From the IMG/VR virus record IMGVR_UViG_3300036944_000597, positions 1 through 31,731 of that record: a stretch of DNA of 31,731 nt. The stretch is one strand, 5' to 3'. The stretch is from a virus. The notes beneath the pieces are model-generated. The model was given only the letters and a program-made list of their open reading frames with translations. It ran no database searches and had not been told where the DNA came from. Positions 7,880 to 31,731 of the stretch are shown here, one piece after another. Each line of letters starts with the position of its first letter. Positions within the stretch are counted from its first letter, which is position 1. A program made the translations under genes and the position numbers.

Positions 7880-8527
7880 TTAGATTATTTTAGGACCGAT
7901 GTACGTACCCACAATAATCAAAGTACTAGATTGAGTCCAGAAAACTTTAACATTCCAAACACCATTATCCCCTAAGCCTCTTGTCATCAAGTCATACTCA
8001 ATGTGCTGCCCAGCTGGATTAGAAGTTATGGTGTGATTACCTATGCTATAGTTAGATGCGTCAGCTCCCCAGATGATTATATTGGAGTACGATGATTCAG
8101 TTCTGTTACCAGCTGTGTATACTCTTGTGATGCCTGTACCTACGGATGATGGGCTGAGCATACCGGCTACATTGTTTATTAGTAAGTTACCGCCTGCCGC
8201 CCCAGCTTGTGACCAGCGGAATTCAAGACCGCCAAGTATAAGACTCTTAGCATTGGCTGCTGTGATAGTGACCTCAATAGACCCTACCTCCATACCAGTG
8301 CCTGCAATTGGGCTAGTAACTGGAGGCTCCACCCAAGTACCTGCACCTGACAACAATCGACCTTGTTGCCCTATCGCAGGTGCGGGGACAATACCAACTT
8401 TACCAGCCACTGAAGCAGTAGCTCCAACCATTGGAGCTGTTAGCTTGTAAAGCTCGTCGGAGTTGCTGTTAGCTTTCTCCATTTCAACGCCCCAAGTAGA
8501 AGGCTCAGTGTGTATAGCTCTTGCCAT
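7880..8527 (-). CDS. Tail fibre protein
   Basis: A 215-residue protein with the motif VGKVGIVPAPAIGQQGRLLSGAGTW at about residues 43-67, a pattern common in tail fibres just before the receptor-binding tip (G.VPAP..G....L.G.G.W). After a PPVTSPIAGTG linker the C-terminal ~130 residues are beta-rich (IEVTITAANAKSLILGGLEFRW, NIIIWGADASNYSIGNHTITS, VWNVKVFWTQSSTLIIVGTYIG) and probably form the trimeric tip. The N-terminus is short, so it probably docks on another fibre or baseplate protein. An AAGGAG ribosome site lies inside the end of the 39-residue ORF just upstream, suggesting translational coupling. Confidence 0.75.
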   Translation of the reverse strand: MARAIHTEPSTWGVEMEKANSNSDELYKLTAPMVGATASVAGKVGIVPAPAIGQQGRLLSGAGTWVEPPVTSPIAGTGMEVGSIEVTITAANAKSLILGGLEFRWSQAGAAGGNLLINNVAGMLSPSSVGTGITRVYTAGNRTESSYSNIIIWGADASNYSIGNHTITSNPAGQHIEYDLMTRGLGDNGVWNVKVFWTQSSTLIIVGTYIGPKII

Positions 8528-8531
8528 AGTA

Positions 8532-8651
8532 TTAGCTCCTTAGTTTAGTAGGTGAAGTTAGTACAGTAGACGCGCGCAAAGACGAAACAGTTCCAGCAAT
8601 AAGGGGCGTCCGTAATTCCCTGATTAATGGAACAATTAAACTAGTCTTCAT
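8532..8651 (-). CDS. 39-residue ORF between leader element A and the tail fibre gene
   Basis: A short reading frame, MKTSLIVPLIRELRTPLI... ending TKLRS. It has a GGAG Shine-Dalgarno sequence (complement of 8658-8661) six bases before its ATG, and its stop lies four bases before the fibre ATG, with the fibre's ribosome site embedded in its last codons. The N-terminus is hydrophobic with basic residues, and the remainder is Ser/Thr-rich. The position directly after the structured leader element and the coupling to the fibre gene suggest either a leader peptide or a small virion protein. No family recognised. Confidence 0.6.
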   Translation of the reverse strand: MKTSLIVPLIRELRTPLIAGTVSSLRASTVLTSPTKLRS

Positions 8652-8679
8652 AAGTCACTCCAGTGGTTAGGTTGGTGGT

Positions 8680-8818
8680 GGTGTATTTCGTGGGACAACA
8701 GCTGTGATAGTATAACCTTATTGACGGCAGTCAAGGGCCGCTCCTTCGTCGCTTCCTCCCTTGACTTGCCTTACCATAAGGTTATCCTTATCACAAGTTG
8801 TCCTGCCGAAAATACACC
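8680..8818 (-). promoter_or_regulatory. Structured leader element, copy A (before tail-fibre block)
   Basis: An imperfect hairpin of 139 nt. Sense-strand 5' end GGTGTATTTTCGGC pairs with GCACGAAATACACC-like sequence at the 3' end (bulged U, then a C/A mismatch). The next helices are AGGACAAC with GTTGTCCC and TTGTGATA with TATCACAG, then AATAACCTTAT-type pairing with ATAAGGTTAT (8711-8721 with 8776-8785), then AAGTCAAGGG with CCCTTGACT. The apical loop on the sense strand starts AGGAAGCGA. It begins 31 nt after the stop of the 1850-residue protein and ends 19 nt before the GGAG of the 39-residue ORF. Same family as copies B and C; it shares their blocks but the intervening helices have different, still complementary, sequences. 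It lacks a U-run, so it is not an ordinary terminator. Confidence 0.85.
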
Positions 8819-8848: not shown

Positions 8849-11800
8849 CTACTCTGGAACATTCCATGGATTGATGTACTGTGTAACATCTGCACCCATT
8901 ACCTGCTGCATGTATCTGCCAGTTACGTTGTCGTTCTTTTCGTGCATGTTGTAAATTTGACTTTGAGTTGCAGACTGGAATAGGTTCTGGCTCCAAGTAT
9001 CGTAAGTGTTAATATCACCACCACGATTTACAAACTCCTGCATAGTGTTGTTGTACTGCTCACCATCCCAGTTGTTTGCATTTATGTTAGCCTTCACTAC
9101 TGAGCCTAGGCTCTTTAAGTCCTCCTGTCTGGCAGCTTCAAACTTAACTGCGCGGTAGTATGTAGCTACTGCAACAGCCTCGTCCATGCCCCTAGCACCT
9201 GCCACCCTTGCAGCCATTTGGAAGAAGTCCAAGTCGCCAGTGTTAAGTAAGGTACTACCTTGGCTAGTGATACGCTCACCTGCCATCAACTGACCTATAC
9301 CTTGTAGTGGCCGGTTCACACCATTAGTTGCCAAAGCCTGTGTGAAAGTATCCCATACAGGAACTCCACCAGCTAGGTTATTAGCAGCCTGCCCCATTGA
9401 ACTGAAGAACTTAGTAGCCATACTAACAAGAGGTACTTCATCCAAACTAGAGGGGATAATAATAGGACTTCTAGGGTTCAAGTTCCCACGGCTAAAGAAG
9501 TCTACACCATCACCTACCATTGGACGGGTAAAGTTGGAAGCGATACCATATAGCATCCAGTCAGCAACCTTACCAAAGCCTGCTGGCATTTCCCCACCTA
9601 AGGCATTGTTGATTCCAGTGTAGAAGTCACCTTCGTAATTGGAACGCTCCGCTACATGGTTGTTCAATAGCTCGAAGCCTGGAGTTGATTGCATGCCAAA
9701 GATACCAGTCTGTAAACCCATCATAGCTGCTGCACGACTAGGCTTCTCACCTAAGTGGCGCATAAGCTGCTGGATTAAGTTGAACTGATAAGTCTGGAAC
9801 AATCCCACTGCCTGACCTGCCCAACCTTGGAACATAGCTGGACGTTGTGCGTAGTGGTAGTTACCTGTCACCCGGTTAACGTAGGTTTGGATTGCCATGT
9901 CAGCAACCTTACCTGTTACACCGGCAGCAGTAAGTACTTGGTTAGCCATGTCCGCAGCCATGAAGCGTACATAATCTTCCGTGGAATCGCCCCACTTAGC
10001 TAAGTAGTCTATTGTCTTGCCCATGGTTTCAGTAAGCGCACCAGCCGCCCCAGCTGCATCCGTCACCAGCTTCTGGCCTACAAGCGCAGCACTATCCACA
10101 GCGTTCATGTACAGTTGCGCTCGCTCACCTATGATACCAAGCTGCATGTACTTCTCACGAAGCTCAGGCTTCTTGAACCAGTTGACAGTGGCCTGACTCA
10201 TTAGTTTACCATTGGACATCTCACTAGCCAGTACTTTACCTGCTTTGTCAGTAGCTTCCACAGTCAGGCTCTTGCCCAATGCTTGACGACGCAATTCAGG
10301 AATGGCATCAATCAAGTGCTTAATCTCAGGGTTAGCTAAGATAGGCAAACTGATAGCGTTGATGATAGGCTGCACATAGTCCAAGCGCAAGGTAAAGGTA
10401 GCACCTATCCAGTTAAGCTTAGGTACAACAGATGCCAAGATTTGAGAGTTAACCTTCTGACTGCGTACAAGATAATCTTGCATCTCGTCATTGTAAGGTT
10501 GAGGCAGCCCATACTTCTCTGCCAATTTATTCATCTCTTGGTAGTTACCTTCCGCAGCACCGGCAGCTTTTACACCAGCAGCACGTAACGGGGCAGTTAC
10601 TATTGTGTTCCACACGTCACTAAACAGTTCATCCGCTGCACGCTGTACGTTACGCCATGTTTTGAACCTGTTGTCATTAGGCATGTTGAGCATAGTAGCC
10701 ATACGGTCTTGTGCAATTGAAGCTTCCTTGTTCTTTGTCCCCAGATCACCTGCACTATTCAAGCGCATATCTTCCAGAGTTTGCAGCAATTGGAACTCTT
10801 CATCGTAGTACTGCTTCTGCAGGTTAGTAAGCACACCGCGAGCTTGACGCTTGTAACTTTGCAACGTAGACCATGCAATCTGAATGTTAGGGTCAGGCAT
10901 AATGTCTGCTGCCTTACCAGTATTCAACTTGCTGTGATCCATGTAGAAGCTATCAATGTTTAAGCCATCTTCATAATCCTGCAGTAGCTGCTTGTGGCGC
11001 TCGGCGTTGGCATTAGGAGTTATGGTTTCAAAGTCGTTACCATACTTACTGCGTAACAAGCTTAGCTTCTCTTCCACAACTTCAGCGTTAGGGCCGCCGA
11101 TAATCATAAACTCGCGGTCACCCATAAGGCCAGGCTTAGTAGGTTTGACAAAGTTAATTACCTTGTACAAGTCACGGTCGATAGTGCCAGGATAGAATTG
11201 ATTGGCATTCCAATTGGCTGACTTACCACGTAAGCTTGCACTAAGCTGTGCACCTTTAACTGTGTGCTGGTTAACCTCACGCAACGCTCGCCAGTAGTTA
11301 GCTACAGAAGCGTTCTCCACAGTAGCTAGTTGATGCTTAATCATCTCATCCAATTTGGTAAGCAGTCGGTTATCAACTTTGGTAGCCATTGCAAAGTCTT
11401 CCAAGGCTGCAAGCAAATCAGAGCTTATAGTCTTGAGAGCTCCAGCCTTGGCCACGTGCGCGGTGAGCTGGTCAAGTACAGGGTTAAGTGCCTTGGCTTT
11501 CTCAGCAGCTAACTTGAGTACGTCAGGGTCATTGGCTTCACCAGCGCTTTGTGCAATACGGTTAAACCAAACCTTGACTGCGCCACCCTGCGCATCCATA
11601 CCAGTAAACTTCCACTCTGGCGGCACTTCTTCCATCTTGTACTGACGGAACTTAGAAGTACTTACAGCTAACTCTGCAACCGCAGCAGGGTCACGAGCTA
11701 TTGAATGGACTGCAGGCTCCACACCTTCGGAAATACGCTTATCACTGAAGGCACCTAAGATACCTAAGGAACGGCCACTGGCATTGGCATGTTCCACTTC

Positions 11801-14401
11801 ACTACCATAAGCCCCTTGCTGTGCTCCAAAGAAGCCTTGAGCATCATCAGTTTCAACAACCTTACGATACCGATTCTCACCAGCTTGTAATGTTGTAGGT
11901 GGCAATTGGAATTTAGCACCTTTAAATGCTGAGCCATAGTAAGATAGGATTTGCGACTGCGCTGCCTGCCTTACCATGTCAGTACGTTTCTTCGCCATTG
12001 CAGCAGAGCGTACTTCAGCTTCGTTACGTGGGGCATTCAAGTCGCGGTCGTAGGTAAGCTTAACCTGAGTAGGCATACGTGGGTCATAAGTCTCAGACCA
12101 CGAACCCATACCCATCTCAGTTGAATCTTCCTTAATACCTTTATGGATTGCAGCGTACTGTTGCCACTTAACATCGGTATCCAGTACGCGTGCAATATCC
12201 GTTTCGCTAAATGCTTGTGGCTTATCCTTACCGCTTAAGTTCTTAGTGCGCAGTTCCTGACCTACACGCGCCTTTTCCTTGAGACTGTACTTGCGAAAGT
12301 TAGCTTGCATAGCGTCAGGTGACACAGCCATATTGAACTCAATGCGTGTACCCCGTAAGCCTGTGCGAGGGTCAAAGTCATCTACAATAACATTGCCTTT
12401 GTAGCCTGACTTCATAGCTTCTAGCGCACGGTAATGCCCAACAAAGTCATCAGGACGTAGCACAATCTCTGGAAGTTCCAAGTCAATAGGATTAGACTTA
12501 GCCCATAAGTACTTAGCGCTGGCAATCACTGGCGTATCTTTCATAACATCCAGTGGTTTATCCAACCCTTCATACACGCGCGTATCTTGGCCGTACTTAA
12601 CAAAAGCTTTAGCCCCTTGGAGGCGGTAAGTACCCATGTCCGCGATTGTAGGTTGACGGTCTACCTGCGACGCAAGCTTACCATTCTTCAAATCCATATA
12701 AGCATCTGAGGTACGCATGCGGGAACGTATAGCATTATTACCACGGAACAGGGAATCCAAAGACTTGAGTTCCAGTGATACAGCTTCATAACGGTCTGAA
12801 GTAAATACAGCCAATGAGTCTGCTAATAACTCGTCAGGGTTATTGACATAATCTATGTCAGCCTTCCTGCTATTTATCTGCTTCACTACATCGTCATAAG
12901 CAGCAGAGTCGGGAGCTAAATCAGCTAACTGCTTTTCAAACTCTTTAATCTCCAGCTGGTAACGGTCTGCCCTAGCCCAAAGACCTGGTCTAGCCATGCG
13001 AGAGGCTTTAACCATCTCTCTGCGGTACTGCTGGCCTAACTCATCAGCCTCCAAACGTCGTGCTAACTTCCAGCCTGTTAGGTGCCCAATCTCATGACGC
13101 AGGGTAAACATAGCTTGCTGCTGGCTGTCTGCCATAGGCATATTAACAATTGCAATGCCCTTACCCTGCTGACTTGTGGCCGTCCCATAGCTTAAATCAA
13201 AGCTATTTTGTGCACGCTCCATAGCCTCCTGCTGGCTCATACTAGGGAAGTGCTCACGCAACTTTGTAGCGTACTCGTCTACACTTTCAACTGCATAGTT
13301 AACTTCGGCGCGGGGTTCAAACACGGTATAGTTTTCGTGGACGCCTTTAATCTTGCTCAGGCCTACTACACTGTGGATGGATTTGTCCACCTCGCCTTTA
13401 AGTAACATCTCTGTCAAGGCTAGGCTTAGATGGCCACCATACTCCTCACTGCCTGCCCACGTACTAGACTTAGAAGTCTCGCGAACCAATCGCCCTATCT
13501 CAAACCTTGCCTGCTCCTCAATCTTGAACAGTTCAGTGCGGACGGTTGCATTAGTAGCAGCGTCACTGCCTAGGCGGTTACGTAAAGTAGATAGGTCTTC
13601 TAAGGCTAAAGCTATGGCGTCACCTGGGTTTACATCCAAGTTAGATTTGGAAAGCTTTAAGCTTATACCATCGCGAGCTTCACTAAAGACAGTGCGTACT
13701 GCACCCTGCATTTCATTCTTGAGGCGCACTGACATAGCTACGCCGCCAATGCCGCCACCTAAGACTGTACCTAACATGAGAGAGCCCATGTTGTTGCCAA
13801 TGGAATCAAGGTAATCCAAGTCCCCATCATTAAGCATGGAGTGCTGGTTCATTGTAAGCACGATTGCAGTTTCAGCAAACGCAGCTTCCAAGAATTGCTG
13901 GTGAAAACCTTGTGACGCTGCGCGCCGAGATAGTTTCATTTCAGAGGTTGCCAATGTGCCAGTCTCACGCATGTTCTTAGCCAGTGCATCCACTTGATTC
14001 TTAGGCACTAATGCTGCACGAATACCAGTAACAGAGCGGCTAGCTGATGTACTAGCTGCCAATCCTTTCTGAGCTAAGTGCAGAGCCTTCATTCCTAAGA
14101 CCCCAGGCAATACTGAGCCAACGACTACACCGCCGAAGTCTACTAAGGTTCTATTCTCCTCAGCATACTTGGCGGTTGCAGTCATGCCAATGTCATTAAG
14201 CTTGTCAACAAAGTCAACTTCTTCAATGTCGGCACCTAACATATTGGCAAATGCGGCGCCAGTGTTCCGAAGCCCATAGGCTCCAGAAGCTATTGACGCT
14301 GTGATGCCATGCTTAGCGAAGTCAGTTACTGGAGTGTACCAACTCTGGTCTTCGTCTACTTCCATGGACTTGTAGTAGGATGTGATTTCGTTGTAGTTCA
14401 T
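8849..14401 (-). CDS. Giant internal virion/ejection protein with HEIGH zinc-peptidase motif
   Basis: An 1850-residue protein, the largest gene in the window, third in a run of ejection-type genes. An Ala/Gly-rich segment near residues 30-110 (TASIASGAYGLRNTGAAFANML, DFGGVVVGSVLPGVLGMKALHLA) looks membrane-active. HEIGH at residues 436-440, preceded by FTLR, is an HExxH zinc-protease signature; about 85 residues on, NPDELLADSLAVF matches the acidic third-ligand region seen in phage zincin-like peptidases. The rest is long, mostly helical and charged, with Ala-rich hydrophobic stretches near 1340-1500. Ejected proteins of this size (compare T7 gp16) form the trans-envelope conduit and carry a wall-degrading domain; here a protease domain may do that. 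It is followed by leader element A. The function is inferred from size, position and motif. Confidence 0.75.
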   Translation of the reverse strand: MNYNEITSYYKSMEVDEDQSWYTPVTDFAKHGITASIASGAYGLRNTGAAFANMLGADIEEVDFVDKLNDIGMTATAKYAEENRTLVDFGGVVVGSVLPGVLGMKALHLAQKGLAASTSASRSVTGIRAALVPKNQVDALAKNMRETGTLATSEMKLSRRAASQGFHQQFLEAAFAETAIVLTMNQHSMLNDGDLDYLDSIGNNMGSLMLGTVLGGGIGGVAMSVRLKNEMQGAVRTVFSEARDGISLKLSKSNLDVNPGDAIALALEDLSTLRNRLGSDAATNATVRTELFKIEEQARFEIGRLVRETSKSSTWAGSEEYGGHLSLALTEMLLKGEVDKSIHSVVGLSKIKGVHENYTVFEPRAEVNYAVESVDEYATKLREHFPSMSQQEAMERAQNSFDLSYGTATSQQGKGIAIVNMPMADSQQQAMFTLRHEIGHLTGWKLARRLEADELGQQYRREMVKASRMARPGLWARADRYQLEIKEFEKQLADLAPDSAAYDDVVKQINSRKADIDYVNNPDELLADSLAVFTSDRYEAVSLELKSLDSLFRGNNAIRSRMRTSDAYMDLKNGKLASQVDRQPTIADMGTYRLQGAKAFVKYGQDTRVYEGLDKPLDVMKDTPVIASAKYLWAKSNPIDLELPEIVLRPDDFVGHYRALEAMKSGYKGNVIVDDFDPRTGLRGTRIEFNMAVSPDAMQANFRKYSLKEKARVGQELRTKNLSGKDKPQAFSETDIARVLDTDVKWQQYAAIHKGIKEDSTEMGMGSWSETYDPRMPTQVKLTYDRDLNAPRNEAEVRSAAMAKKRTDMVRQAAQSQILSYYGSAFKGAKFQLPPTTLQAGENRYRKVVETDDAQGFFGAQQGAYGSEVEHANASGRSLGILGAFSDKRISEGVEPAVHSIARDPAAVAELAVSTSKFRQYKMEEVPPEWKFTGMDAQGGAVKVWFNRIAQSAGEANDPDVLKLAAEKAKALNPVLDQLTAHVAKAGALKTISSDLLAALEDFAMATKVDNRLLTKLDEMIKHQLATVENASVANYWRALREVNQHTVKGAQLSASLRGKSANWNANQFYPGTIDRDLYKVINFVKPTKPGLMGDREFMIIGGPNAEVVEEKLSLLRSKYGNDFETITPNANAERHKQLLQDYEDGLNIDSFYMDHSKLNTGKAADIMPDPNIQIAWSTLQSYKRQARGVLTNLQKQYYDEEFQLLQTLEDMRLNSAGDLGTKNKEASIAQDRMATMLNMPNDNRFKTWRNVQRAADELFSDVWNTIVTAPLRAAGVKAAGAAEGNYQEMNKLAEKYGLPQPYNDEMQDYLVRSQKVNSQILASVVPKLNWIGATFTLRLDYVQPIINAISLPILANPEIKHLIDAIPELRRQALGKSLTVEATDKAGKVLASEMSNGKLMSQATVNWFKKPELREKYMQLGIIGERAQLYMNAVDSAALVGQKLVTDAAGAAGALTETMGKTIDYLAKWGDSTEDYVRFMAADMANQVLTAAGVTGKVADMAIQTYVNRVTGNYHYAQRPAMFQGWAGQAVGLFQTYQFNLIQQLMRHLGEKPSRAAAMMGLQTGIFGMQSTPGFELLNNHVAERSNYEGDFYTGINNALGGEMPAGFGKVADWMLYGIASNFTRPMVGDGVDFFSRGNLNPRSPIIIPSSLDEVPLVSMATKFFSSMGQAANNLAGGVPVWDTFTQALATNGVNRPLQGIGQLMAGERITSQGSTLLNTGDLDFFQMAARVAGARGMDEAVAVATYYRAVKFEAARQEDLKSLGSVVKANINANNWDGEQYNNTMQEFVNRGGDINTYDTWSQNLFQSATQSQIYNMHEKNDNVTGRYMQQVMGADVTQYINPWNVPE

Positions 14402-16349: not shown

Positions 16350-17564
16350 TTACATTGTAAGAGGCTTCTGAACAGGCGCTACCCCAATAGTTTGCTGAGG
16401 CTGTAGCCCACCCTGTAACTGAGCTAACATCTCAGGTGTTAACCCTAAAGCTGCGAGCGCTTGAGCGTCAGGGCTTTGAACGGCCTGCCCATTAGTAGGA
16501 GCTGCCGCCACGCCGGGTACAAGGCTCTGGATATTAACTGGTGCAGTAGCTTGCACTGGTGCAGTAGCCTGTGCCGGTGCAGCTGCAGGAGCTGGAGCAG
16601 GTTGTGCCATAGCAGCTCCAGTGTTCGGAGCTTGTACTGCTGGATTCATACTAGGCAAGGCTACATTAGCCAGCGGGCCGGTAGTTACGGCAGGAACACC
16701 AATACCTTGACCTAGTTGGCTCATGATATTAGTACCAGTTCCGATACCTGCACTCTTATCCTTGGCAAAGTCCTGAAAGGTATCAGTAGTTGCCTTACTT
16801 TGTCCAGCAGTCGAAGTAGAATTAGACTCTGTAGCCTTCTCCTGCGCTGTCCGGTCTTGAGTAGTTGCAGTGTTACTAGTGTTAGTACCTGTGTTGGCAG
16901 TAGTTCCTGTAACATTGGAGTTCTCAGTGTTGGTAGTAGCAGCCTTACCAGTAGTAGCCTCTTGCCCGCCTTGCAATGCGCCCATAAGTTGAGCTAAGCT
17001 TTGAGATTGCTGAGCTTGACTTGCCTGCTTAGCCATTACACCAGCTTCGGCAGCGCGGGTTGCAAGGTCGTTCTGTAATAGGGCTGTAGTGGTATCACCA
17101 AACGTACCGCTGCGGTTGCCTACACCTGCAATAGCTCCAGCACCAGAACGTAGAACCTTCTGCATTGCGGCGTCCATGGCACCCTCACCCTTGCCAAACT
17201 CACCACTTAGCTGCATAATATTTTGTAATACAGCACTATTAGCGCCAGCGTCACCACGAACAGTGGTCTGAGTCTGGTCAGTTGCGGATTGCCCCGCCGT
17301 CTGTTGTTGTTGCTGCATTTGCTGAAGTTGGTTAGTAACGTCAGTTGTATTGGAAGTACCAAAAACCTTTTCCATAAGGTTCTTGTCCATTTGACTGAGG
17401 GATTGTTGTAGCTGTTGAAAGAATTCATCACTCACCCCTGTAGTACGTTGGTCTTGTGCCGCAGCTTCTGCAGCTGTTTTAGCATTTAAACGGTCTACTC
17501 TAAGTTCAGCCCCTTTACTAAGTAACTCAAAAGGGTTAGCCTTTGAAAAAATTTTATCGAACAT
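16350..17564 (-). CDS. Ejection-type virion protein, Gln/Thr/Ala-rich with low-complexity regions
   Basis: A 404-residue protein, first gene after leader element B. It begins with a helical segment (MFDKIFSKANPFELLSKGAELRVDRLNAKTAAEAAAQ), then a Gln-rich stretch (QQLQQSLSQMDKNL, QLQQMQQQQQ), a Gly-rich region (LRSGAGAIAGVGNRSG), a Thr/Asn/Ser-rich linker and a Pro/Ala segment with tandem PVQATA repeats. Such disordered, non-catalytic proteins are typical of DNA-ejection proteins that are packed in the head and unfolded to leave through the tail. A GAGG lies five bases before the ATG, and the A/C-rich linker of the leader element lies just upstream. Assignment rests on composition and its place beside the other two ejection-type genes. 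Confidence 0.6.
   Translation of the reverse strand: MFDKIFSKANPFELLSKGAELRVDRLNAKTAAEAAAQDQRTTGVSDEFFQQLQQSLSQMDKNLMEKVFGTSNTTDVTNQLQQMQQQQQTAGQSATDQTQTTVRGDAGANSAVLQNIMQLSGEFGKGEGAMDAAMQKVLRSGAGAIAGVGNRSGTFGDTTTALLQNDLATRAAEAGVMAKQASQAQQSQSLAQLMGALQGGQEATTGKAATTNTENSNVTGTTANTGTNTSNTATTQDRTAQEKATESNSTSTAGQSKATTDTFQDFAKDKSAGIGTGTNIMSQLGQGIGVPAVTTGPLANVALPSMNPAVQAPNTGAAMAQPAPAPAAAPAQATAPVQATAPVNIQSLVPGVAAAPTNGQAVQSPDAQALAALGLTPEMLAQLQGGLQPQQTIGVAPVQKPLTM
16537..16572 (-). repeat. 18-bp tandem repeat coding for a PVQATA unit
   Basis: Two 18-bp units (ACTGGTGCAGTAGCTTGC and ACTGGTGCAGTAGCCTGT on the + strand) differ at two positions and are followed by a diverged partial third. They lie inside the 404-residue ejection-type protein and encode its Ala/Pro/Gln repeat. 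Tandem units in frame can expand or contract without breaking the protein. Confidence 0.75.
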
Positions 17565-17593
17565 AATAACCTCGATGGTTGTAGTTGGGTAGT

Positions 17594-17724
17594 GTGTATT
17601 TCGGTGTGGTTGATTCCTGCGACAGTATAACCTTACTCTCCTCCCGCAAGGGTCGCTTCGCTTCCTCCCTTGCAGTCGTCAGGTAAGGTTATTCTTGGTC
17701 GCATCAACCACGCCGAAAATACAC
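17594..17724 (-). promoter_or_regulatory. Structured leader element, copy B (before ejection-protein block)
   Basis: A 131-nt imperfect hairpin. The sense-strand 5' arm GTGTATTTTCGGCGTGGTTGAT pairs with ATCAACCACACCGAAATACAC with one bulged U and one C/A mismatch. Then come a GCGAC/GTCGC helix, the conserved ATAACCTTAC with GTAAGGTTAT helix, and GCAAGGG with CCCTTGC closing a purine-rich loop that begins AGGAAGCGA. It starts 20 nt after the endolysin stop and ends 20 nt before GAGG of the 404-residue protein. A small 15-nt hairpin (17722-17736; CACC with GGTG) overlaps its first bases. It is the clearest copy for seeing that the outer helix differs from copy C yet remains paired. Confidence 0.87.
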
Positions 17725-17744
17725 CTGTGGCCGGTGGCGTTACC

Positions 17745-18122
17745 TTAGTAAGGGAATAAGCCTTTAGGTAAGTTAGGGTCACAGTCCATGTGGATGAAGC
17801 CATGCTTGTAGTTGATGCCTATGCGCCAGAAGCCATGCTTGATAGCAGAGGCCAACAGTGCGTAGCCTTGCTCCATGCTATTGTACTTAATATCTAGTGC
17901 ATAGCCGCGTAGGTGAGCGCTATTAGCTCCGCCGCCTACAGCAGCGTTGTGAGCTTCACAGCGAAACGCACTGTTAATCTTCAGTGGAAAGCCTACTTCC
18001 TCACGTATGGCATACAACTTAGTTAAGGTTGTCATACGCATGTCTGCAAAGCCTTTACCGCACTGCCCGCATTGGCAAGCAAACTCACTGTCTTGAAACT
18101 TTGGGTGTCTAGGGTTAGCCAT
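17745..18122 (-). CDS. Endolysin, M15-type D-Ala-D-Ala carboxypeptidase/L-Ala-D-Glu-like zinc peptidase
   Basis: A 125-residue peptidoglycan peptidase of the Peptidase_M15_3 type. The N-terminus has the family's FACQCGQCG cysteine motif at residues 14-22. Then come SAFRC...HN..VGG, SAHLRGYALDI and FIHMD. Zinc ligands are expected at His70, Asp77 and His111. It has no signal peptide or separate wall-binding domain, so it acts as a globular lysin needing a holin. The full-length size matches other phage enzymes of this type. GGAG lies eight bases before the ATG; the ATG overlaps the preceding gene's stop. It is the last gene before leader element B, placing lysis in the same late transcript as head and tail proteins. 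The exact bond cut cannot be told from sequence. Confidence 0.88.
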   Translation of the reverse strand: MANPRHPKFQDSEFACQCGQCGKGFADMRMTTLTKLYAIREEVGFPLKINSAFRCEAHNAAVGGGANSAHLRGYALDIKYNSMEQGYALLASAIKHGFWRIGINYKHGFIHMDCDPNLPKGLFPY

Positions 18123-28172: not shown

Positions 28173-30080
28173 TTACACCGGAGTTTGAGCAGGCGCTTGA
28201 CCTGGCTGCGGGTTATTAGGGTCAGGAGGCGTGTTGCCTGCTGAGGGAGCTGGAGCTGTAAGTTTGAACTGGCTAATCTTAGCTCCCATCAACTCGTTAA
28301 TATACACATACAAGCCAGCTACATCAAACTGCGCTGCAAGCATTGGGTTGGCCAGGAGTTGTGTATATGAATTGATTAGTGGGTCTAAGCTTGCAATTGA
28401 TTCTTTCTTGGCTAGCCCGTCTGCCAGCTTGAAGTTAATAACCTTAGTGCTTAAGAGCAGTGGGTTAACTTCTACTGAATCACCTAAAGAAGTTACAATT
28501 TCATCAGCATCTTGGTACTGAGCAATGTTGGCGCGGATAATTGTTTTAATCGGCTCCATCACAACGTTCTCAAACATAAGGCCATAAGTCCTTAAGTCAG
28601 AGTCCGCGTTATTCATTATCTCGTTGAACTCAGATGCAGTCTTGTTACCCTTTTGGAATTGACCCATCTGCGCACGGTTGAGTCGTGTAATCTCTGAAGC
28701 TGATTGCTTAAGGAACCCAATCTCTTGGTGGAAGTTAGCAGCCATTTGGTCAGTAAAAGGTAATTGCTTAACTGACTGCAATGGATCCTTGTTAAGCATG
28801 TTAGGCTTAACTGCAATCGGCGCACTAGGATGCCGCAAGCTTGCAACGTCAACAGTCCCCTCAATGTAGGCATACTTATTGCCAGTTGCCTGAGCTAAGC
28901 TACGTAAGCGTGCGTCATACAACTTAGTGGCCAAGTTCTGCATTGGGATTACAAGCTGTGCATCAGACTTAACTTGTTCGCCAATACCATCTTCTTTAAT
29001 CATCGGAGTGATGATGTTAAAGTAGTTGTGCACGTTGTTCATACGCTCACAAGCTACTAAGGTATCACCTACTTTAATGAGGCGTAAGATGTGAACTGTA
29101 TCAGGTTGCCCAAGCTCTGTAATACCTAACATAGAAGGAATGACACGAGTGTACATAACTGTCCACAAGTATTCATCCATTGGGTTAGCTTTGTACTTGC
29201 TGCCATCAGTTACAGACTGACCGAAGAACATTTCCCAGTTGCCACCCCAAGCCGTATCGTTATCGCCAGCTTGTGGAGCTTCAGGTACAATGCACGGGCG
29301 CATATAGCTGTTTAAGCTTCCAGGGGTTGAAGCCTTAAAGCAATCATGTTGGTTCATAACAGCTTTGCCTTGGGCCTTCATAACCTTAATACGGCGCACC
29401 ATTTCAACCATACTGATTTTTTCAGTATAGCCTACGAACTCACCATACATATGAACTTCAGCGGGTTCTACAAGTTCGTCATGGAATACGTTGTAAATAT
29501 CCAGACGCTTAATCTTGTTACCTGATGTAGGAACTTCGCTTACAGATTTGGAGGAACGTGAACCTGCATTGCTTGTTTGCAGCTGCTGTACTAGGCGTGT
29601 ATCCCAATCAACTTCAATAGCGCACTTGTTGTACTTGGCTAAGTCGCCAAAAGCAATTGTTAAGTTACGCGCCCATGCGTAATCTTTACTATCGCGCTCA
29701 TTGACTGCGTCAACTTGCATGGCAATGCCCATGTCATCCTTAGATGGTGGAACAGCTTCGAAGATTGAGGGACGTGCAAGAAACAAGTCAACAAGGAAAC
29801 CTTTCACAGTATCTACTGCTTGAGTTACCAGACTAACTTCAGTGTCGTCGAAGTAGTCGTAACGCTGGTCACGATTAACACCTAAGTTACGGCGTGTATC
29901 TGATTCCAGTTGGATAGCCTTGTCAATCTTTTCGTAAATGTGGCGACGTTGCGCAAAGTTAAATCGTTGGATGCAATTGTTCATGTAAGTCACAGCTGCA
30001 AGTTGTGAGTCCCTGCCGAGGGCTAAGGTATTACCAACAACTTTGTTGTGACTCTTTGCAATCCGTTTTGGTTGTTTCAT
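28173..30080 (-). CDS. Portal protein
   Basis: A 635-residue protein, in the expected order after the terminase large subunit and before scaffold and capsid. It starts after leader element C with AGGAG about nine bases before the ATG. Features include FNFAQRRHIYEKIDKAI, YDYFDDTEVSLVTQAVDTVKGFLVDLFLARPSIFEAVPPS, LTIAFGDLAKYNKCAIEVDWDTR, VMYTRVIPSMLGITELGQPDTVHILRLIKVGD and IPMQNLATKLYDARLRSLAQATGNKYAYI. These are typical of podovirus portals, which form the dodecameric DNA channel. The C-terminus is Pro/Gln/Ala-rich (GNTPPDPNNPQPGQAPAQTPV), as in several head-tail connectors. Portal residues cannot be checked structurally here. Confidence 0.85.
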   Translation of the reverse strand: MKQPKRIAKSHNKVVGNTLALGRDSQLAAVTYMNNCIQRFNFAQRRHIYEKIDKAIQLESDTRRNLGVNRDQRYDYFDDTEVSLVTQAVDTVKGFLVDLFLARPSIFEAVPPSKDDMGIAMQVDAVNERDSKDYAWARNLTIAFGDLAKYNKCAIEVDWDTRLVQQLQTSNAGSRSSKSVSEVPTSGNKIKRLDIYNVFHDELVEPAEVHMYGEFVGYTEKISMVEMVRRIKVMKAQGKAVMNQHDCFKASTPGSLNSYMRPCIVPEAPQAGDNDTAWGGNWEMFFGQSVTDGSKYKANPMDEYLWTVMYTRVIPSMLGITELGQPDTVHILRLIKVGDTLVACERMNNVHNYFNIITPMIKEDGIGEQVKSDAQLVIPMQNLATKLYDARLRSLAQATGNKYAYIEGTVDVASLRHPSAPIAVKPNMLNKDPLQSVKQLPFTDQMAANFHQEIGFLKQSASEITRLNRAQMGQFQKGNKTASEFNEIMNNADSDLRTYGLMFENVVMEPIKTIIRANIAQYQDADEIVTSLGDSVEVNPLLLSTKVINFKLADGLAKKESIASLDPLINSYTQLLANPMLAAQFDVAGLYVYINELMGAKISQFKLTAPAPSAGNTPPDPNNPQPGQAPAQTPV

Positions 30081-30117
30081 TCAATAGCACTCCTGCTGAT
30101 TGGTTAGTAGGTGTTGT

Positions 30118-30260
30118 GTGTATTTCGGTGTAACTGCCCTCCTGCAATTTATAACCTTATCCTCACGTGTCAAGGGCCGTTCGCTAGCGCTCACTGTTCC
30201 CCCTTGACACTGCTCCTATAAGGTTAGTAAATATGCAGGTCAGTTACGCCGAAAATACAC
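30118..30260 (-). promoter_or_regulatory. Structured leader element, copy C (before portal/head block)
   Basis: A 143-nt imperfect hairpin. Sense-strand GTGTATTTTCGGCGTAACTG pairs with CAGTTACACCGAAATACAC, with the same bulged U and C/A mismatch as copy B. Then come CCTGCA with TGCAGG, TAACCTTATA with TATAAGGTTA, and GTGTCAAGGG with CCCTTGACAC. The loop is longer (24 nt) than in B. It starts 20 nt after the terminase stop and ends 23 nt before AGGAG of the portal gene, with an A/C-rich linker between. A small hairpin ACCCT-loop-AGGGT (30259-30271) overlaps its first bases. There is no U-run on either side. Confidence 0.87.
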
Positions 30261-30280: not shown

Positions 30281-31731
30281 TTAGTTGCTTCTGAAGTCAT
30301 AGGTTCTAGCATCGAAGTCCCTTCCAGGTTTATATGTTCCATAAGTCTCCCGATACACTTGCTTCACTATAGTTAAGTCTCGCATGGTGTGGAAGATTCG
30401 AATAGCATACTCGCCAACGTCCAAGATATCATCCACGTTATCATCTTCCAGAGGGTTGAATGCAATAGCTTCCGTTTGGTAGGCTGCAAACACCTGTGGA
30501 ACCATCCGCAAGACATTAGCGTATACTGCTCCAAAGCTTTCGTATATCCATGCAGTTTTGGACTTCTGGCTGCCACCTTGGCGCGAGATTTCCACAAGGT
30601 TAATGGATTCCGGCGCCAGTTGGAACTGCTCCATGAAGAAGGCAAACCACTGTAAGAGTGTAGCCTGATAGGCATAAGATTCGGCGAAGATTGCACTAGC
30701 ATTCTCCTCCATAGCCCACTGCAATACTGCAGGCACCAATTGAGGTGCAGCCATCTGCATTACCCGCATCTCCTTCCATACTACCCCACCTTCGTCATAG
30801 ATTTCAAATAAGCCTACAACTTGGTTGTCAGAAGTCTTCTTACCTAAGGACGGGTCAATCACAATGAACCTTCCAATAGGTAGCATGGGCATAACCGGAA
30901 CCCAAGGTGCTGCTCTGGTAATGTCGAAGAACATACCTTCTGTAGCCCTAGGGTCGTTCTGTACTTCTGCATACCATACGTGAGCTTGCCCCAATCTGGT
31001 GTCAGAAGCTAAGTCCTCTAAAAGCGCCTCGGGAGGATGCACCTCAGGCCAGATGCTAGAACCATCTGCAAGGAAGGCTCCTGTAACCCATGATACCCAG
31101 TCCGCAGCCTTTTGTAAGTTGCGCAGGATACAGGAGTATACCTTATCCACGGCGCCCTTAGCACTAATCTCCAGGTCGGGGTACATGTTACCTACGTACA
31201 TTACGTGGCAACGCTTATAGTCCCGCGCCTTGAGCAAGGTACCAAGGAACCAAGCTAGTAGCTCCTTAGATTGTTCCACTGACTTAGCTTGGTCACGGCT
31301 CTGCGCGTCATCAAGTATGATAACTTGTGGCCGTTGGTTATCAATGTTAGTACCCCGTACAGCGCTACCTGCGCCAATAGGCTTTAGGATTATGCCGCGG
31401 CCTTGGAAGTGGAACTTACGAACCTCAGCATTATCCTTATCTATACCTAACCTATAGTCTCCAAAGAGGTTCTTAATGTTTTCGGATGCGAGCATGCCCA
31501 TAACGTCATCAATGATGGCGCGGGCTAAGCTTGCTGTGTTACCTACCACAAGTATATACTTAATGTCCGTGAATAGAATAATGTACACAATGAGGAGCTT
31601 AAGCATGTGGGTCTTGGCGTGGCCACGAGGGATACCAATCGCATGCTTAGTTAGGCGCTTAGGGTTCAGAAGCACAGAGGTTATCATGACCCAGATGGAA
31701 TGGTGCATGGGGGAGAGCGGCGAGGTGTAGA
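30281..31731 (-). CDS. Terminase large subunit, 5'-truncated by window edge
   Basis: The DNA-packaging motor. The frame is open to the window end (YTSPLSP precedes the first Met), so the N-terminus lies outside; about 482 residues are visible. The ATPase Walker A is PRGHAKT, about 39 visible residues in, and Walker B is VIILDDAQ, preceding the usual catalytic acidic position, with Asp-Ala rather than Asp-Glu. The nuclease domain has FIVIDPSLGKKTSDNQVVGLFEI, AIFAESYAY and EDDNVDDILDVGEYA, supplying the expected acidic residues. It lies first in the late order visible here; its stop is followed at 20 nt by leader element C. The small subunit is not in the window. Confidence 0.92.
   Translation of the reverse strand, partial: YTSPLSPMHHSIWVMITSVLLNPKRLTKHAIGIPRGHAKTHMLKLLIVYIILFTDIKYILVVGNTASLARAIIDDVMGMLASENIKNLFGDYRLGIDKDNAEVRKFHFQGRGIILKPIGAGSAVRGTNIDNQRPQVIILDDAQSRDQAKSVEQSKELLAWFLGTLLKARDYKRCHVMYVGNMYPDLEISAKGAVDKVYSCILRNLQKAADWVSWVTGAFLADGSSIWPEVHPPEALLEDLASDTRLGQAHVWYAEVQNDPRATEGMFFDITRAAPWVPVMPMLPIGRFIVIDPSLGKKTSDNQVVGLFEIYDEGGVVWKEMRVMQMAAPQLVPAVLQWAMEENASAIFAESYAYQATLLQWFAFFMEQFQLAPESINLVEISRQGGSQKSKTAWIYESFGAVYANVLRMVPQVFAAYQTEAIAFNPLEDDNVDDILDVGEYAIRIFHTMRDLTIVKQVYRETYGTYKPGRDFDARTYDFRSN

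Follow-up and report, generated by a model that had tools for sequence, protein, structure and literature searches.

Long duplexes in bacterial RNA are established substrates of RNase III, and stable hairpins in 5′-UTRs, which are short and located at the extreme 5′ end of the primary transcript, protect phage and bacterial mRNAs. In phage T7, cleavage at the R1.1 site has been reported to drive mRNA maturation and protection, and the RNase III sites of E. coli have been reported to lack a strong consensus (PMC8708148). The window that we analyzed is a virus record of 31,731 bases (IMGVR_UViG_3300036944_000597; G000), a podovirus genome fragment in which the genes to the right of approximately 5 kb lie on the minus strand. 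The window phage (2-31731) is distant from cultured phages: its terminase and portal matched those of Aeromonas phage P5 at 35% and 33%, respectively, and further terminase and portal matches came from the PaMx41/PaP2/119X phage group and a few other phages. PaMx41 is placed in the Fredfastierviridae, and the comparison suggests that the window phage represents a new genus or family near this family.

A scan of the whole window for inverted repeats (threshold 38) detected only three strong ones, elements A, B, and C. We used a strict inverted-repeat score instead of minimum-energy windows and a lenient repeat score, which separated poorly from shuffles. The hairpins of element A (8680-8818), element B (17591-17726, with a core at 17592-17725), and element C (30118-30260), all on the minus strand, scored 70, 57.5, and 62.5, respectively, against 42 for the best repeat found in 20 dinucleotide-preserving shuffles. 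Their folding energies ranged from -68 to -69 kcal/mol and their RNA folding z-scores were -9.4, -10.7, and -9.7 in the order A, B, C, with none of 200 shuffles folding as well. The hairpins are 134-146 nt long and contain about 50 base pairs in three tiers, which form a nested structure, and element B is at the position given in the first-pass annotation. Element B separates the endolysin gene (17745-18122), whose stop ends at 17745, from a 404-aa ORF (16350-17564), whose start codon is at 17564. Element A lies downstream of a 1850-aa virion-type ORF (8849-14401, stop at 8849) and is followed first by a 39-aa ORF starting at 8651 and then by a 215-aa ORF (7880-8527), and element C lies between the genes for the terminase large subunit (30281-31708, stop at 30281) and the portal (28173-30080); all of these genes are on the minus strand.

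Elements A, B, and C are copies of one portable mRNA leader module. Each consists, in this order, of a short 5′ block, the long hairpin, a linker rich in A and C, and a Shine-Dalgarno site. Alignment placed the 5′ block of element B at 17727-17747 (minus strand); it includes the stop codon of the preceding gene, which falls within the weakly shared sequence ..ACTAA(C/G)..CGC.ACC.., and ..ACTAA(C/G).. likewise encloses the stop codon upstream of element C. In the nearest relative, G001, all three copies have GTCGCTG(C/T)AGT upstream of the hairpin. Since these 5′ stretches are shared between copies, the beginning of the module probably lies about 30 nt 5′ of the hairpin. Stable hairpins between genes could also represent intrinsic transcription terminators or attenuators. 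We rejected this reading because there is no U-run: in every copy from the window and G001, the sequence after the 3′ arm is rich in A and C. In addition, the elements occupy co-directional gaps where operon segments begin, and a terminator or attenuator is extremely improbable.

The distances described in the first-pass annotation were correct for the window: the hairpin starts about 20 nt after the stop codon in B and C and about 30 nt after it in A. Between the hairpin and the Shine-Dalgarno site, the linker measures 18 nt in A, 17 nt in B, and 23 nt in C. On the minus strand, the element A linker (8662-8679) leads to GGAG (8661-8658), the element B linker ACCCAACTACAACCATC (17574-17590) to GAGG of the 404-aa ORF (17570-17573), and the element C linker (30095-30117) to AGGAG (30094-30090). 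Their A/C-richness was also as described, with A+C contents of 0.89 (A), 0.88 (B), and 0.83 (C), at most one G each (none in B), and a joint P of 0.001-0.002 per linker against random windows of the same genome (0.0013 for B). The idea of a fixed geometry stood only in part. Spacing is alike within the window and its nearest relatives but varies in other relatives, where stop-to-hairpin distances of ~6-43 nt and hairpin-to-start distances of ~9-63 nt were found; thus, the geometry is alike but not fixed. Similarly, the A/C bias is real in close relatives only. The linkers of element-led genes had an A+C content of 0.83 versus 0.58 in other leaders (5 versus 34 genes, p=0.0007), and the bias was strong only in the window, G001, G002, and some others, and not in P5 or PaMx41.

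The G-poor, A/C-rich linkers and the constant position before the ribosome-binding site (RBS) are consistent with a passive leader, in which the hairpin insulates or protects the 5′ region while the linker, as proposed in the first-pass annotation, serves as an open landing stretch for ribosomes. Conversely, the predicted accessibility of the linkers was not clearly above that of the following coding sequence (mean unpaired values of 0.62, 0.72, and 0.48 versus 0.60, 0.42, and 0.61), which does not bear out a specially unstructured linker and weakens the standby-site idea. In P5 and PaMx41, the linkers either are short or lack A/C-richness, which also speaks against an open ribosome site as the linker's job, some ordinary hairpin-free leaders are A/C-rich as well, and insulation needs no conserved stem sequences. 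A purely passive leader is therefore unlikely.

The fold itself is under selection at the RNA level. Among the three window copies, 14 base pairs had changed on both sides, a number reached in none of 500 shuffles, and a slid control in which the partner was moved by 1-3 columns gave only 1-4 such pairs. Pairing was found in 92.4% of cells among these copies, a value that is partly built in because the consensus structure was derived from the same three copies; the two-sided changes are the stronger point. In the three G001 copies, whose folding z-scores ranged from -8.2 to -10.8, 19 of 55 pairs showed two-sided changes. The blocks GTGTATTTTCGG / CGAAATACAC and TAACCTTA / TAAGGTTATA were invariant in all three window copies while neighboring pairs covaried, and a block pair also written as GGTGTATTTTCGG / CGAAATACAC was invariant in the window with the intervening pairs exchanged. 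The mid-stem of the three G001 copies differed from that of the window and was largely common to them, and P5 kept TGTCAAGGG in six copies while other sequence had diverged.

Invariant blocks amid covarying pairs would be expected of a translational or stability operator, in which a phage or host protein binds the conserved stem blocks and controls the set of hairpin-bearing genes. The G001-specific mid-stem and the TGTCAAGGG of P5 fit a partner that co-evolves in each phage, and the unusual hairpin length combined with sequence-conserved blocks leaves room for a dedicated protein. Such a partner is hypothetical; moreover, the downstream genes are functionally unrelated, both early and late, and a direct occlusion of the Shine-Dalgarno site is not expected given its distance from the end of the hairpin. 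We consider an operator unlikely.

We then compared these elements with those of other phages. The nearest relative, IMGVR_UViG_3300021197_001483 (G001), has a 48% identical terminase and carries three copies, of which G001a and G001b occupy the same junctions as C (terminase/portal) and B (preceding the 404-aa ORF orthologue); the third precedes a gene of the early region and is on the opposite strand. As single-protein queries, the terminase found this genome and the portal found no relative; blastn with the element B region detected no relative in the phage collection, and the genome contigs contained only three distant MCP relatives. Outside the window, a covariance model built from the three window copies (R1) matched only G002 and, weakly, P5, and since it found so few matches it was too specific for the class. 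In the inverted-repeat scan, each relative was compared with three shuffles. Aeromonas phage P5 had seven copies, Pseudomonas phage PaMx41 and G004 two each, and G003 one, while at least two were present in G002 and at least one in each of G005-G009 and G013.

Each of the 24 curated copies in the window's phage group preceded an RBS and start codon in the sense orientation, so that every one was followed by a gene. Because the curated copies were chosen partly by gap position, the ranked list of repeats scoring >=50 is the less biased test; most of these lay in co-directional gaps or overlapped only short doubtful ORFs, with gaps making up about a tenth of the sequence and gene calls taken as longest-ORF guesses. 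The elements occur on both genome strands, following the sense strand of the next gene, and the apex was purine-rich in the sense orientation in 22 of 26 elements (p=5e-4), indicating that orientation follows transcription rather than the genome strand. These observations, together with the covarying fold, support the suggestion of the first-pass annotation that the element is a 5′ leader device for the next gene acting at the RNA level. The downstream genes include those for the portal, virion-type ORFs, a helicase, an early-region gene, and others, and this variety makes a gene-specific autoregulatory device unlikely. Placement clusters at the terminase/portal/capsid boundary, before the portal in element C, G001, G002, and G004 and after it in G003, G007, G008, and G009. 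The P5 copy at 37959-38112 (L007), with a GTCAAGGG apex, lies directly before the helicase gene and inside ORF P5_0037, which reads through the hairpin.

Copy numbers of 1-7, positions that differ among phages, and similarity within a genome would also be produced by a spreading palindromic element of the MITE or REP type that is tolerated in gaps and has no phage function. However, each copy appears to be under selection, judging from the covariation, the sense-only orientation upstream of RBSs, and the presence of elements at homologous junctions in the window and G001 (C and G001a; B and G001b), and we regard a spreading element as highly improbable.

We also tested whether the palindromes could act in DNA, as a sigma70-type promoter or a promoter pair whose TTGACA would lie in the inner stem and whose TATACT-like box would lie in the mid-stem. 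Both arms scored above shuffles (mean of 7.76 for sense and 7.35 for antisense versus 6.83). However, the strands scored alike, with no clear preference and a mostly higher antisense arm in P5, and the spacing from TTGACT/TTGACA to TATACT/TATAAA was 14 nt in A and C and varied elsewhere, as opposed to the 16-18 nt expected. TTGAC was missing in B, G001b, G001c, and PaMx41, compensatory pairs extended far outside any promoter, and the apex orientation was fixed to the sense strand. Outside the family, a palindrome with TGTCAAGGG..CCCTTGACA at L226:10349-10482 reads as a near-consensus sigma70 promoter, TTGACA-N17-TATAAT, in both directions, and L274:709-883 and 1578-1722, with the same motif, read as the near-consensus TTGACA-N17-TATAGT; these loci, with their 17-nt spacing, speak for promoters. 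For the elements themselves the promoter reading was not supported, and it is very unlikely.

In viral contigs, the TGTCAAGGG..CCCTTGACA motif occurred in 85 stretches versus 15 for a control with two letters swapped, and 21 versus 2 of these lay in inverted repeats scoring >=45. Since two of the matches are promoter-like, the motif alone is not diagnostic of the class. In high-G+C contigs, long hairpins at L321:13048-13189 (G026), L318:3905-4038 (G027), and L233:1409-1549 combine the TGTCAAGGG apex with an outer stem of GTCGACCTC / GAGGTCGAC. The two matches to the pattern GTGTATTTTCGG..AACCTTA in viral contigs (L001 and L002) were discarded as AT-rich chance matches without a fold. EBPR podovirus 3 (L010) contains near-perfect GATGCGGCCGCTTGTATCTGATACTG... 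palindromes at 9391-9449 and 29047-29103, which resemble the remains of a cloning adaptor in the record.

The contigs with the motif in such a repeat included an unrelated podovirus, G024. This podovirus, whose terminase and portal belong to other PHROGs and which gave no terminase or capsid match to the window's phage family, has four long hairpins, two of which are clearly leaders (before the terminase and after the portal). A second subtype, found in two podovirus lineages, is defined by covarying stems and the invariant internal-loop letters GGCGAAGC..CGAG / CGAAGYAAGC. These letters are shared by the elements at L315:4556-4742 and L316:9105-9272 in G024 and by those at L039:2930-3046, L040:3204-3337, L096:6216-6331, L098:278-393, and L192:3159-3288; they are present in G024 and in the window-family contigs L039, L040, L096, L098, and G019. 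Their invariance within covarying stems is a further point in favor of the operator discussed above. The second subtype may be homologous to the window's elements. It is possible, though doubtful, that all of these hairpins form a broad class of phage leader RNAs with subtypes and a conserved UCAAGG/CCUUGA inner stem, present in otherwise unrelated podoviruses and read by a specific, perhaps phage-encoded, factor that segments operons. At the gathering score, Rfam gave no match in the window or in six related loci, and its E-value mode gave only weak unrelated matches; a partial literature search retrieved no description of these elements.

The inner stem reads GUCAAGGG/CCCUUGAC in A and C, with one register shift in C, and GCAAGGG/CCCUUGC in B. 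Of 30 elements, 12 had TCAAGG in their 5′ half and 15 had CCTTGA in their 3′ half, against 0.9 expected for each. These counts are inflated by relatedness among the elements, but the six P5 copies have kept TGTCAAGGG despite divergence elsewhere; no UCAAGG stem is present in the elements of G001 and PaMx41. Because this stem resembles that of the T7 sites in part of the elements, the elements occupy a leader position, and the downstream genes are varied, we favor RNase III-type processing. Our tentative reading, held with slightly less than even confidence, is that the element is a portable leader RNA that segments polycistronic phage mRNA through such processing; transcription through the element, its cleavage, the enzyme, and the effect on expression are inferred. 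The element would act in the RNA, on the sense strand and in front of the downstream gene, where host RNase III or a similar double-strand RNase would cut the long duplex. The downstream cistron would thereby gain a separate 5′ end and a short leader with little structure, the upstream mRNA would be capped by a stable 3′ structure, and neighboring operon segments could be expressed at different levels. Since E. coli RNase III sites are reported to lack a strong consensus (PMC8708148), UCAAGG may mean something else, and the invariant stem blocks, which exceed the sequence needs of RNase III, hint at a specific partner. Elements stand before many unrelated genes, which fits a module of general use in processing or segmenting mRNA better than a standby site adapted to a single gene.

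If this reading is correct, podoviruses outside the T7 group possess large, portable mRNA-processing leaders of their own, which divide the genes for terminase, portal, capsid, and other proteins into segments that are expressed independently. The covarying long duplexes would then form a natural set from which to learn how RNase III or a phage factor recognizes its targets in vivo. Since the class, absent from Rfam, is present in the cultured Aeromonas phage P5 and Pseudomonas phage PaMx41, it can be tested at once.

Finally, we compared the elements with the RNase III sites of T7. We took these to be R0.3, R0.5, R1.1, R1.3, R4.7, R6.5, and R18.5, and the gaps presumed to hold such sites were assigned from general knowledge, the T7 record carrying no such annotation. 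TCAAGG was present in six of the ten gaps so assigned, mostly within a hairpin just upstream of the RBS. Like the elements described here, the T7 sites are intergenic hairpins just 5′ of the next RBS, occur several times per genome, and serve early and late genes, and in most of them an inner-stem UCAAGG pairs with CCUU, which resembles the inner stem of part of our elements. The main T7 hairpins are mostly 23-67 nt long (roughly 20-65 nt) as folded here, a size well below the 134-146 nt of our elements, and the 3′ side reads CCUUUAUG in T7 and CCUUGAC in our elements, which, unlike the T7 sites, also have conserved blocks in the outer stem and a flanking linker rich in A and C. Cleavage is known for the T7 sites and would be expected for the elements under the favored reading. 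Protective 5′-UTR hairpins resemble the elements in that a stem-loop is followed by an RBS leader without structure, but our elements occupy intercistronic positions and are repeated within one genome. REP sequences and related repeats are likewise repeated intergenic palindromes; they are short and not tied to RBSs, whereas the elements described here are longer, covary, and stand in sense orientation before a start codon.
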